DNA of 64,000 bases from Bacillus sp. (in: firmicutes). Lineage in GTDB: Bacteria > Bacillota > Bacilli > Bacillales > Cytobacillaceae. The translations under genes and the position numbers were made by a program. The notes below the pieces were generated by a model, which saw only the letters and a list, made by a program, of their open reading frames with translations, did not search any database and had not been told where the DNA came from. This document shows positions 17,268 through 27,857 of the stretch, piece after piece. How positions within the stretch are numbered: the first letter of the stretch is position 1; every line of letters begins with the position of its first letter. The stretch spans positions 1-64,000 of the forward strand of contig WTKE01000108.1 of the NCBI GenBank assembly GCA_011524525.1, written 5' to 3'.

Positions 17268-18020
17268 TTATTCACCTTGATCCGTTAGAATGATCGGACC
17301 ATTCTTCGTGATGGCAATGGTGTGCTCAAATTGAGCTGAGTTTTTTCCATCCACAGTACGAGCGGTCCAGCCATTGGAATCCATCTTTGTTTCATAGCTT
17401 CCGACATTAACCATCGGTTCGATCGTAAATACCATTCCCTCTTTTATACGAGGACCTTTTCCTGGTAGACCAAAGTGCGGAACATCAGGCTTTTCATGAA
17501 TGGAGGGGCCAATTCCGTGACCAATAAAGTTTCTTACGACCGAGAATCCCTCTCCTTCCACGTAGGTTTGAATCGCATGTCCAATATCTCCGATTCGATT
17601 GCCTACGACAGCTGCTTCAATTCCTTTGTATAAACTCGTTTTTGTTACTTCTACCAAGCGTTTTGTTTCTTCAGAAGCTTCTCCGACGATATATGTCCAT
17701 GCGGAGTCTGCTAGAGCACTATTCACATTGACAACCATATCTATAGTGACAATGTCCCCTGTATTTAGAGGTTCTTTTCTTGGAAAGCCGTGACAAATCT
17801 CATCATTAATACTAGCACATGTTGCGTACTCATAACCTCGGTAACCCTTTTGTTGAGCAGTTGCACCATGCTCTGCTAAATATTTATCAACAAACTGGTC
17901 AATTTCCCAAGTAGTTATTCCTGGTTTGATCATTTTTTTTATTTCTTTATGACAAGCAGCCAGAAGCTCCCCTGCTTTTTTCATGGCCTCAATTTCACGA
18001 GGTGATTTTAAAACAATCAT
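17268..18020 (-). CDS. map: type I methionine aminopeptidase
   Basis: CASINDEICHGFPR, GHGIGPSIHEKPDVPHF and MVFTIEPM motifs. Confidence 0.92.
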   Translation of the reverse strand: MIVLKSPREIEAMKKAGELLAACHKEIKKMIKPGITTWEIDQFVDKYLAEHGATAQQKGYRGYEYATCASINDEICHGFPRKEPLNTGDIVTIDMVVNVNSALADSAWTYIVGEASEETKRLVEVTKTSLYKGIEAAVVGNRIGDIGHAIQTYVEGEGFSVVRNFIGHGIGPSIHEKPDVPHFGLPGKGPRIKEGMVFTIEPMVNVGSYETKMDSNGWTARTVDGKNSAQFEHTIAITKNGPIILTDQGE

Positions 18021-19189: not shown

Positions 19190-19221
19190 CCCTTAATCTC
19201 CCCCTAAAATACAATCGTATT

Positions 19222-19320
19222 CCAGGCAGTCCAGCCGTCTTAGCAAAAAACTTCCAACTACCTTAGACCTGCGACTTTGCGTCCCCCCTTTTCAGAAGGT
19301 TTGCCCTTTTCTGCGTTTTT
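19222..19320 (-). promoter_or_regulatory. cyclic-di-GMP-I (GEMM-I) riboswitch
   Basis: Minus strand ACGCAGAAAAGGGCAAACCTTCTGAAAAGGGGGGACGCAAAGTCGCAGGTCTAAGGTAG...GCTAAGACGGCTGGACTGCC: GGGCAAACC, GAAA tetraloop, GGACGCAAAG and the receptor-side sequences of GEMM-I. Confidence 0.88.
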
Positions 19321-24339: not shown

Positions 24340-24720
24340 CTAAAATAACTTCTTATTTATTTTTTGCTCATAATTTTTAAAAATAGAGGAGTTTGTATTC
24401 ACCCGGCGTTTGGATAACATACTGTTATAACGCAACATCTTTTCATTTAATTTTTTCTGTAAACCAATTCTTTGATCATCGTCATCACAGGATTTTAACA
24501 GAGATTCTATAGACATCATTTCCTGCTTGAGTGCATGTTCTTCCGGAGAATACCCCGCATTTTTCAAGACGGTAAATGCCATACGAAGTTCCTCAGGAAT
24601 GGCAGATAAATCATCAAGCTTTAAAGGTTTCCCATAGCCAGGTAAATGATCGAATTCTCCATTTTCCATCGCCTTACGAATGCGTTCCTCTGAAATACTT
24701 TGAGAAAAATCCATGAACAT
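24340..24720 (-). CDS. DUF1992 / DnaJ-homologue-subfamily-C-28-like protein
   Basis: ISEERIRKAMENGEFDHLPGYGKPLKLDD. Confidence 0.85.
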   Translation of the reverse strand: MFMDFSQSISEERIRKAMENGEFDHLPGYGKPLKLDDLSAIPEELRMAFTVLKNAGYSPEEHALKQEMMSIESLLKSCDDDDQRIGLQKKLNEKMLRYNSMLSKRRVNTNSSIFKNYEQKINKKLF

Positions 24721-24782
24721 CCCTCCTTCCCTTATTATACCTTGTATAGTGGAAAGCGAGGAAGTTTTCCATCATTTGCTTT

Positions 24783-25343
24783 TTAACTTTGATCAGGCAT
24801 CCAGTTTGCTGGGACACCTTTCCCTGTATTCTTGGCATGCTGAAGGGCCTGCATAAGCCTAACATGCTCATAAAGGTTTCGTCCGACTTCCCTTGGATAG
24901 ACGAGTTTAGCAACAATGATTTGTTCAGGATCTATAAAAAATGAGGCTCTAAAAGCAGCACCTGTTTTCTCATCCAGTACTCGATACGATTGGGAGATCG
25001 CATGAGTTCTGTCACTCAACAAAGGGTAGTAGACATTTTGTAAAGAGGGAGTGGTTTCTCGAAACACTTTATGTGAATAGATGCTATCTGTGCTAATAGC
25101 CAAAACCTCAACATTCATTGCTTGAAAATAAGGATAAACAGCAGCGACCGCCGCTAGTTCTGTCTCTCAGACGGGTGTAAAGTCACTTGGATAGAAAAAC
25201 AAGAGAAGCCATTTCCCTTTATATTGCTCGAGTTCAAATGTTTTGATTTCTCCATTTATAAATCCTTTTGTCGAGAAGATTGGAGCTTGATCGTCTCGCG
25301 TCGTACAAAATGGCTGTTGCTCATTTTGAGATAGATTAGTCAC
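24783..25343 (-). CDS. candidate selenocysteine-containing peroxiredoxin (in-frame UGA at 25167-25169)
   Basis: GTG start after RBS GGGGGG; 186 codons in one frame reading MTNLSQNEQQPFC...KWLLLFFYPSDFTPV-U-ETELAAVAAVYPYF...GKGVPANWMPDQS with UGA at the peroxidatic Cys position. The ORF track shows only the part after the UGA (24783-25118). Confidence 0.72.
25140..25155 (-). promoter_or_regulatory. SECIS-like hairpin downstream of the in-frame UGA
   Basis: AGCGGC-GGUC-GCUGCU, 6 bp (one G-U), loop GGUC starting 18 nt after the UGA. Confidence 0.6.
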
Positions 25344-25484
25344 TTGGATCCCCCCTCTTTTTTAAAATTTACAACCCATTACTTTCTATAAATATGCATG
25401 AACCTTCTGAACTGTCCTGTTTCTTTTCTACATAGAAGCGAAATTTTCCGGAAAAGCTAATTTTGAGGAAAGGAGTGTGGAAAA

Positions 25485-25649
25485 ATGAGTCGCGGAAAAG
25501 ATTTTGAGCATAAGAAAAAGGGACATCCTGGGAAGTTTCCTGAGGGGACTCTTGTTGAAAAACATACAAAGGACGCAATTGGCGATGAGGAATTTCTTGT
25601 CGTACGTGAAGCGTTTAAAAATCGAGTAGAAACTAGAGACGTGGAATAG
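25485..25649 (+). CDS. small hypothetical protein (54 aa)
   Basis: RBS GGAAAGGAG; MSRGKDFEHKKKGHPGKFPEGTLVEKHTKDAIGDEEFLVVREAFKNRVETRDVE. Confidence 0.6.
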   Translation: MSRGKDFEHKKKGHPGKFPEGTLVEKHTKDAIGDEEFLVVREAFKNRVETRDVE

Positions 25650-25766
25650 ACCTTGCAATCGCAAGGTCTTTCTTATTTATCCAGCGCCATGAGCTATTCT
25701 TATTCCCCTTTTCTTTCGTTTTCCTGTATACTTATCCCGAGCAAATGGAAATTCGGAGGATAAATA

Positions 25767-27857
25767 ATGAAATCACTCGTACTCGCTGAAAAGCCAAGCG
25801 TAGCTAGAGAAATTGCGCGCGTTCTTGGCTGTACGCAAACACATAAAAGCTATATTGAAGGGCCGAAGTATATTGTCACTTGGGCACTTGGACATTTAAT
25901 TGAGTTAAAAATGCCTGAGCATTATGATACGAAATACAAGCAATGGAATTTAGAAGACCTACCGATCATCCCTGATCAGATGGGGCTTAAGGTGATGAAA
26001 CAAACCTCTCACCAGTATAAAGCGATCGAGTTTCTTGCCAAGCGTAAAGACGTGAAGGATTGCATTATCGCCACCGACGCGGGACGTGAAGGGGAGCTTG
26101 TTGCGCGCTGGATTTTAGAAAAAATCCGCTGGAATAAACCGATTAAGCGTTTGTGGATCTCATCCCATACAGATCGTTCGATTAAAGAGGGATTTGCTAA
26201 GCTCCGTCCTGGTAGCGAGTATGAAAATTTATATGCTTCAGCGGTTTGTCGAGCGGAAGCCGATTGGTTAATTGGACTGAATGTGACTCGTGCTTTAACC
26301 ACCAAATATAAGGACCCACTCTCTGCAGGTCGAGTGCAAACTCCAACTCTTGCGTTAGTAATGGATCGCGAAAAAGCCATTCAGACATTTAAGCCACAGG
26401 AATACTGGACGATTTCTGCCCAAATTGGACCTTTAAAGACAGATTGGGAAGAAAATGGAGAGAAGAGAATTTTTTCAAAAGACAAAGCAGATCATATTTT
26501 AGCAAAAGGTAAAGGACAAAAAGCGGTCGTTCAGTCGATCAATCGTACCGCAAAGTCTGAACAACAGCCGCTGCCCTATGATTTAACAGAGCTGCAACGT
26601 GATGCCAACAAGCGCTTTGGCTTTTCAGCGAAAAAGACATCGAGCGTATTGCAAAAATTGTATGAGCAGCACAAGCTCGTAACTTACCCGCGTACGGATT
26701 CTCGTTACCTTACGACGGATATGGAAGCGACGATGCTCGACCGAGTCGAAGCGATTGCTGGAGGCTATAAAGAAGAAGTACGAAGCATTCTAGCTAACAA
26801 GGGTAGGGTAGTTGCAAAACGGGTGTTTAATAATGAGAAAGTAACCGATCACCATGCCATAATTCCTACAGAAGAGCGATTATTTCTTCGTGATTTAGAA
26901 TCAGATGAACGGAAGCTCTACGATTTAATTGTGAAGCGATTCCTTGCTCTGTTTTACCCTGCCTATCAGTATGAAACTGTTCGTGCCGTATTTGATGTGA
27001 ACGGGGAGTCCTTCTCAGCGAAGGAAACGGTCGTGGTTGATGCAGGTTTTAAAGCTATTACAGGAAAAGATCAGGAGCTAAGTGGCCAAAAGCTCGGACA
27101 GATCACGAAGGGACAGTCCTTCTCGATAGGTCAGGTTCAGGTAGAGAAAAGGTTAACCGAACCCCCTGCTCGATTCTCAGAGTCTGATATTTTAGGTCAA
27201 ATGGAGAAATACGGGCTTGGTACCCCTGCGACTCGCGCGGAAATTATCGAAAGAATCATTGAAACTGAGGTTGTTGAACGGAAAAATGGACGTTTGCATC
27301 CGACTCCTAAAGGAAAGCAATTGATGGATCTTGTGAATGAGGAGCTTACCTCTCCTGAGCTTACCGCACAATGGGAAAAAGAGCTTGAAGCTATTTCACG
27401 TGGCAAAGGAGATCCAAAGCAATTTTTAAAACGAATTCGTAAGCAAACCGAGCAATTGATCTCTGAAATTAAGACGAGTGATAAATCGTATCGCGCTCAT
27501 AACTTAACGGGATCCAAATGCCCAGAGTGCCAATCTTTGTTAAAAGAGAGAAATACGAAAGAAGGCAAGATTCTCGTTTGCTCGAGCTCGGAATGTAACT
27601 ACCGAAAGCGTAAGGATCCAAAGCTTTCTAACAGACGCTGTCCTCAGTGTAAAAAGAAAATGGAAATGCACGAAGGAAAAGCTGGCTTGTACTTCCAATG
27701 CCGGAAGTGTAACGTGGTTGAGAAAGCAGAGGAACGAAAGAAAGCGGTCAATAAACGCGAGGAACGAAAGCTTGTCCAGAAGTACACCCAAAAAGATGAC
27801 AACTTCGGAAACAGCCTCGGAGACTTATTAAAAGCAGCATTAGAAAAGAAAGAATAA
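25767..27857 (+). CDS. topB: DNA topoisomerase III
   Basis: LAEKPSVAREIARVLG, TYPRTDSRYL active site, and C-terminal zinc-finger motifs. Confidence 0.95.
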   Translation: MKSLVLAEKPSVAREIARVLGCTQTHKSYIEGPKYIVTWALGHLIELKMPEHYDTKYKQWNLEDLPIIPDQMGLKVMKQTSHQYKAIEFLAKRKDVKDCIIATDAGREGELVARWILEKIRWNKPIKRLWISSHTDRSIKEGFAKLRPGSEYENLYASAVCRAEADWLIGLNVTRALTTKYKDPLSAGRVQTPTLALVMDREKAIQTFKPQEYWTISAQIGPLKTDWEENGEKRIFSKDKADHILAKGKGQKAVVQSINRTAKSEQQPLPYDLTELQRDANKRFGFSAKKTSSVLQKLYEQHKLVTYPRTDSRYLTTDMEATMLDRVEAIAGGYKEEVRSILANKGRVVAKRVFNNEKVTDHHAIIPTEERLFLRDLESDERKLYDLIVKRFLALFYPAYQYETVRAVFDVNGESFSAKETVVVDAGFKAITGKDQELSGQKLGQITKGQSFSIGQVQVEKRLTEPPARFSESDILGQMEKYGLGTPATRAEIIERIIETEVVERKNGRLHPTPKGKQLMDLVNEELTSPELTAQWEKELEAISRGKGDPKQFLKRIRKQTEQLISEIKTSDKSYRAHNLTGSKCPECQSLLKERNTKEGKILVCSSSECNYRKRKDPKLSNRRCPQCKKKMEMHEGKAGLYFQCRKCNVVEKAEERKKAVNKREERKLVQKYTQKDDNFGNSLGDLLKAALEKKE

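Follow-up and report, generated by a model that had tools for sequence, protein, structure and literature searches.

A gene of the AhpC/Prx1 fold located in the window (i.e., the whole 64-kb stretch of DNA analysed here) almost certainly encodes a selenoprotein peroxiredoxin, in which a hairpin downstream of an in-frame UGA would direct the insertion of selenocysteine (Sec) at codon 59, and which probably works through a 1-Sec catalytic cycle. The location of this UGA at the catalytic site, its conservation among relatives, the compensatory changes of the hairpin and the occurrence of Sec machinery can all be read directly from the sequences compared. Altogether they lend good support to the initial annotation of this DNA, which had proposed a selenoprotein. 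Sec peroxiredoxins are an established family, as several reports state (PMC1794560; PMC5029168; PMC13188914), of which the clade described here is a separate Bacilli branch.

A reading frame with a single internal UGA

Re-reading of the reverse strand reproduced exactly the frame of the initial annotation, which starts with GTG (25343-25341), runs for 186 codons with TGA (25169-25167) as its sole internal stop, and ends with the TAA at 24783 (Table 1). The residues flanking the UGA are ...LLFFYPSDFTPV-UGA-ETELAAVAAVYPYF..., the active-site stretch of the protein being FYPSDFTPV-U-ETELAAVAAVYPYF. By itself, a TGA-split open frame is unremarkable, since a mechanical scan of the window, requiring at least 30 + 40 codons around one TGA, returned 37 of them, namely this frame and 36 others (the latter assessed by eye, from their flanking residues only). 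What goes beyond chance is the presence of a full AhpC-TSA domain spanning the TGA, together with the placement of this codon in the column of the catalytic Cys and its invariance across all orthologs examined. The aligned column holds TGC or TGT in Cys homologs, in agreement with the claim that the stop falls exactly at the peroxidatic Cys.

Table 1. Features of the peroxiredoxin locus and their positions in the window.
Feature	Positions	Strand	Details and evidence
Predicted Sec-containing AhpC/Prx1-type peroxiredoxin gene (Sec-Prx)	24783-25343	-	186 aa, GTG start, TAA stop; domain, structure and ortholog evidence
In-frame UGA, codon 59, at the peroxidatic Cys position, predicted to be read as Sec	25167-25169	-	Ortholog alignment
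SECIS-like hairpin GCGGC-GGUC-GCUGC, apical loop 25149-25146	25141-25154	-	Pairing, covariation, synonymous codon freeze
Shine-Dalgarno-like GAGGGGGG upstream of the Sec-Prx GTG	25350-25357	-	Direct reading; purine-rich in 5/5 Robertmurraya sequences
Divergent conserved small ORF, 54 aa, MSRGKDFEHKKKGHPGKFPEG...	25485-25649	+	Adjoins Sec-Prx in 41 of 80 named loci
Inverted repeat, possible terminator between Sec-Prx and the next gene (DJC28_CD family)	24749-24772		Consensus match only

Fold and family placement

The fold class of the protein is that of AhpC/Prx1, as read from its sequence: translated through the TGA, it matches the Pfam AhpC-TSA domain (PF00578, 124 bits) and solved 2-Cys peroxiredoxins (E about 1e-37), and it carries the PxxxTxxC/U motif as P52-S-D-F-T56-P-V-U59. 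In an AlphaFold2 model (mean pLDDT 89.5, residues 1-9 being a low-confidence tail), residue 59 sits close to the beginning of the helix after the active-site loop; among solved structures, Foldseek gives human Prx3 and Salmonella AhpC as the nearest folds. Typical 2-Cys peroxiredoxins (bacterial AhpC and eukaryotic Prx1-4; PDB 5jcg, 4ma9), which provide these best structural matches, share with the window protein the fold and the frame FYPxDFTxV(C/U)xTE. Whereas they have a peroxidatic Cys and a resolving Cys within VCPANW, the window protein has a predicted Sec and lacks the resolving Cys. It also resembles the "Peroxiredoxin (Prx)" selenoprotein family of two selenoproteome surveys and a review (PMC1794560; PMC5029168; PMC13188914), as the predicted Sec form of a PF00578 peroxiredoxin whose TxxU motif reads T-P-V-U.

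A more particular comparison is offered by PrxU of Peptoclostridium (Eubacterium) acidaminophilum, a characterised Sec peroxiredoxin (Sohling et al., 2001, as cited in PMC13188914, reference 83, PMC9312934 and PMC8533274). Both proteins have an AhpC-type sequence with UGA at the peroxidatic position (FYPGDFTFVU in PrxU), a hairpin at the identical offset from the UGA (UCAGC-AGUU-GCUGA in PrxU) and no C-terminal resolving Cys (EVAPSGW in PrxU). The alignment with PrxU and Cys homologs suggested in the initial annotation showed the shared UGA and hairpin position in the former and TGC/TGT in the latter. PrxU is, however, only about 42% identical to the window protein and falls on a separate branch with strong support (100/97 to 100/98). 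Filing the window protein as a PrxU equivalog was rejected, as it scores 157.2 bits with NF040737, below the curated cut-off of 270 bits; the gene thus belongs to a related branch and is not PrxU itself.

In the tree, a single branch (100/99) separates all Sec rows from the 14 Cys rows, a topology compatible with a single Cys/Sec switch, the root not having been set independently. Two rows (L147 and L165) have long branches, and their placement is unreliable. As to earlier descriptions, the tables of Zhang et al. (2006; PMC1794560) give the Bacillales selenoproteins as a total only (3), and none of the papers found describes the Bacilli branch or its missing Cys forms, supplementary tables and subscription journals lying outside the search.

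Conservation of the UGA among relatives

Peroxiredoxin genes of this type with exactly one internal TGA (UGA-Prx) occur in 28 of the 61 genomes searched, the window's own included, with 51-94% identity to the window protein. The four other Robertmurraya species all carry one (91-94% identity), and the nearest named orthologs are those of the cultured Robertmurraya korlensis (90-92%), which makes a Robertmurraya species the most likely source of the window. A sequencing error, which the initial annotation had listed among the findings that would speak against its proposal, is excluded because the TGA is common to five species of the genus. A second such finding, close relatives with TGC or TGT at this codon, did not materialize either: the catalytic codon is TGA at every one of the 80 named GTDB loci (Robertmurraya, Mesobacillus, Cytobacillus, Alicyclobacillus and others) and TGC or TGT at none, though the choice of these loci relied in part on the peptide TELAAVAA, a criterion that could be biased towards Sec forms. 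A class-wide profile search of 399 genomes, free of that restriction, gave a graded picture in which each match of at least 201 bits has one TGA, a second tier of UGA peroxiredoxins appears at 178-181 bits, and ordinary Cys peroxiredoxins with TGC or TGT score 177 bits or less. No Cys member of the window clade was found in the 61 genomes, the 80 named loci or the 399-genome search. The statement that the gene is invisible to standard gene callers turned out to be too strong, since the public annotation of the Cytobacillus spongiae ortholog reads through the UGA as a full-length "peroxiredoxin".

Several loci and genes met along the way deserve mention. Four loci are titled Pseudomonas sp. ISL-84, Chryseobacterium sp. 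ISL-80, Sporosarcina globispora and Paenibacillus sp. FSL R5-0490 (L068, L070, L074 and L077, respectively); their genes and synteny are Cytobacillus/Mesobacillus-like, and the record names are probably wrong or outdated. Another type of UGA peroxiredoxin, with U-PTECACIA and extra Cys at +4 and +6, is represented by L146 (genome G205) and L148 (genome G225), both genomes also holding a window-type gene. Its SECIS is probably different, as the GCRGC-GGUC hairpin is absent from the usual place. Furthermore, many relatives contain extra short AhpC/TSA-like frames (about 155-190 aa) with one internal TGA (e.g., G021:C28:391219-391587 and G017:C56:74541-74912), which probably represent further selenoprotein peroxiredoxin-like families.

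A SECIS-like hairpin downstream of the UGA

Taking the U of UGA as position 1, the hairpin occupies nucleotides 16-29, with the consensus GCRGC-[GGUC or AGUU]-GCYGC in nearly all sequences. Its five stem pairs form in all 64 distinct sequences (100% of 320 cells). In particular, pair 18-27 is AU in 30 of them, GC in 24 and GU in 10, and is broken in none, while pair 16-29 includes a UA, found in the distant PrxU. The covariation score of the hairpin was reached by none of 500 shuffles and a tree of 95 sequences shows 8-9 changes in each of columns 18 and 27, with pairing kept throughout. Loop positions 21 and 24 switch jointly from G/C to A/U (84 versus 11 rows, none mixed), and on the same tree they changed together about five times, from GC to AU or back; since these concerted changes occur without mixed cases, they suggest that the two positions also contact each other.

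The constraint extends to the coding level. Synonymous variation drops sharply over codons +5 to +9, where the encoded residues AAVAA, in the helix after the active site, are almost invariant and the codons are limited to GCR GCR GTY GCY and then mostly GCT; the synonymous entropy of the two loop codons is 0.42 bits, versus 1.3-2.0 for four-fold degenerate codons beyond the hairpin. In Cys homologs, this stretch reads ITALSD or similar, and the RNA hairpin appears to have shaped the AAVAA segment of the protein.

Folded as a single sequence, the window hairpin is not exceptionally stable (z = -1.18, not significant), and the case for a SECIS was built on the alignment evidence instead. A conserved G within a small apical loop is given as a criterion in PMC1088965; here, a covarying stem-loop with the loop GGUC or AGUU stands directly after the UGA.

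Selenocysteine machinery

The assembly to which the window belongs comprises 113 contigs (2.92 Mb) and is about 67% complete. It contains a tRNA-Sec gene (selC; C7:54679-54771, 64.6 bits), selA (C53:22225-23604, 559 bits) and, close to the latter, a Sec-type selD (C53:20306-21232), itself with one TGA. The initial annotation had proposed a search for the whole set and had named a genome devoid of Sec machinery as a third finding against its proposal, which did not arise. One piece was not found, as neither the family model nor a congener's SelB detected selB in this 67%-complete assembly. As selB is full length in all four Robertmurraya congeners, the incomplete assembly is the simplest reason for its absence. 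At a broader scale, UGA-Prx is present in 28/47 Sec-positive versus 0/14 Sec-negative genomes (Fisher p = 3.8e-5, with no correction for relatedness).

Proposed catalytic mechanism and alternative readings

The resolving Cys (+117) is present in 14/14 Cys homologs compared and is replaced in the window clade by VPANW or TPANW, so that the VCPANW signature of 2-Cys enzymes is missing. The C-terminus of the window protein reads GKGVPANW and its only Cys, C13, lies near the N-terminus (PFCTT), both as first described, and the replacement of the resolving Cys agrees with the 1-Cys-like design then suggested. The N-terminal Cys, though present in the window, proved not to be conserved, since this position is Tyr in the four congeners, whose proteins are devoid of Cys. 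In view of the replaced resolving Cys and of these Cys-free congeners, the most likely mechanism is of the 1-Sec type, with an external thiol serving as reductant. During translation, the hairpin downstream of UGA codon 59 would recruit SelB-GTP-Sec-tRNA(Sec), and Sec would be inserted in place of termination. The Sec selenolate would then attack H2O2 or organic hydroperoxides, yielding a selenenic acid, and the oxidised Sec would probably be reduced by an external thiol, be it a thioredoxin-like protein or bacillithiol or another low-molecular-weight thiol. The insertion of Sec, the peroxidase activity and the nature of the reductant are predictions from sequence.

Concerning this last step only, a different cycle has some, clearly smaller, probability: the Cys near -46 (that of PFC in the window) might resolve the selenenic acid as a selenenylsulfide, making a Sec + Cys enzyme. 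A Cys within -49 to -45 is found in 73/95 sequences, the window's included, and could participate in some lineages; yet the four Cys-free congeners, at 91-94% identity, weigh against such a cycle, and residues 1-9 of the model belong to the low-confidence tail.

The remaining alternatives concern the UGA itself, and all are far less probable than the previous one. Every Sec UGA competes with termination by release factors, and the codon might thus be mainly a selenium-responsive switch, whose regulated outcome would be a 58-aa truncation at low selenium. We consider this very improbable, as the alignment reveals nothing conserved that would be specific to the truncated peptide, and the invariant columns are mostly located at the active site or beyond it. 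Even less credit is due to a non-Sec reading of the UGA, in which near-cognate decoding or an altered code would give, e.g., Trp or Cys: among the 61 genomes searched, UGA-Prx is restricted to those with the Sec trait, the downstream hairpin covaries, Cys homologs carry Cys at the UGA column, and several orthologs terminate with TGA as an ordinary stop. Finally, the UGA does interrupt the frame, and chance split frames are common in the window (37), so that a nonsense mutation in a decaying pseudogene, or a sequencing error, might have hit the catalytic codon by chance. This explanation was rejected as practically negligible, because the same UGA recurs in five Robertmurraya species and in over 100 orthologs with identities as low as about 51%. 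Moreover, the frames on both sides are intact, with no further in-frame stops and with strong amino-acid conservation past the UGA, as had been argued initially from the intact frame.

Significance of a branch with no Cys form found

The reading as a Sec peroxiredoxin adds a well-supported selenoprotein branch in Bacillaceae, including the cultured genera Robertmurraya, Cytobacillus and Mesobacillus. We lean slightly towards a broader view, in which this Bacilli-wide branch would be obligately Sec-dependent and the hairpin would have dictated the AAVAA stretch, which may help explain the non-reversion to Cys. The obligate dependence is suggested because no Cys member was found, the resolving Cys was lost and some members are free of Cys. 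The missing Cys version makes the branch suited to testing what keeps a protein locked into Sec, and the Cys-free orthologs would be natural 1-Sec enzymes, with which the reductant could be identified cleanly. With regard to the environment, Zhang et al. (2006; PMC1794560) proposed that Sec forms are disfavoured by oxygen, while Peng et al. (2016; PMC5029168) no longer found a strong link between oxygen and Sec.

Genomic setting

The Sec-Prx gene stands alone; the 54-aa ORF and topB are divergent from it, and a DJC28-family gene and motAB come after it. The 54-aa ORF, without a Pfam match, adjoins Sec-Prx in 41 of the 80 named loci (57-98% identity), and topB, DJC28 and motA recur nearby in many of them; none of these neighbours appears in the examined flanks of orthologs from other genera (Rossellomorea, Halalkalibacter, Alicyclobacillus and others). 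Its synteny with topB, DJC28 and motAB points to a gene resident in the chromosome. A plasmid or mobile origin was considered and rejected, the best plasmid match being 54% identical and located on a large Cytobacillus spongiae replicon. No sigma-70 promoter match or regulatory site was identified in 24700-25780, and the upstream region is conserved in the five Robertmurraya species without a motif that could be named.

Elsewhere in the window, a c-di-GMP-I-GGC riboswitch aptamer (Rfam RF03167, 62.4 bits) lies at 19221-19314 on the reverse strand. The next ORF of at least 120 aa past it on the same strand, at 17268-18020 and about 1.2 kb downstream, looks like a methionine aminopeptidase.
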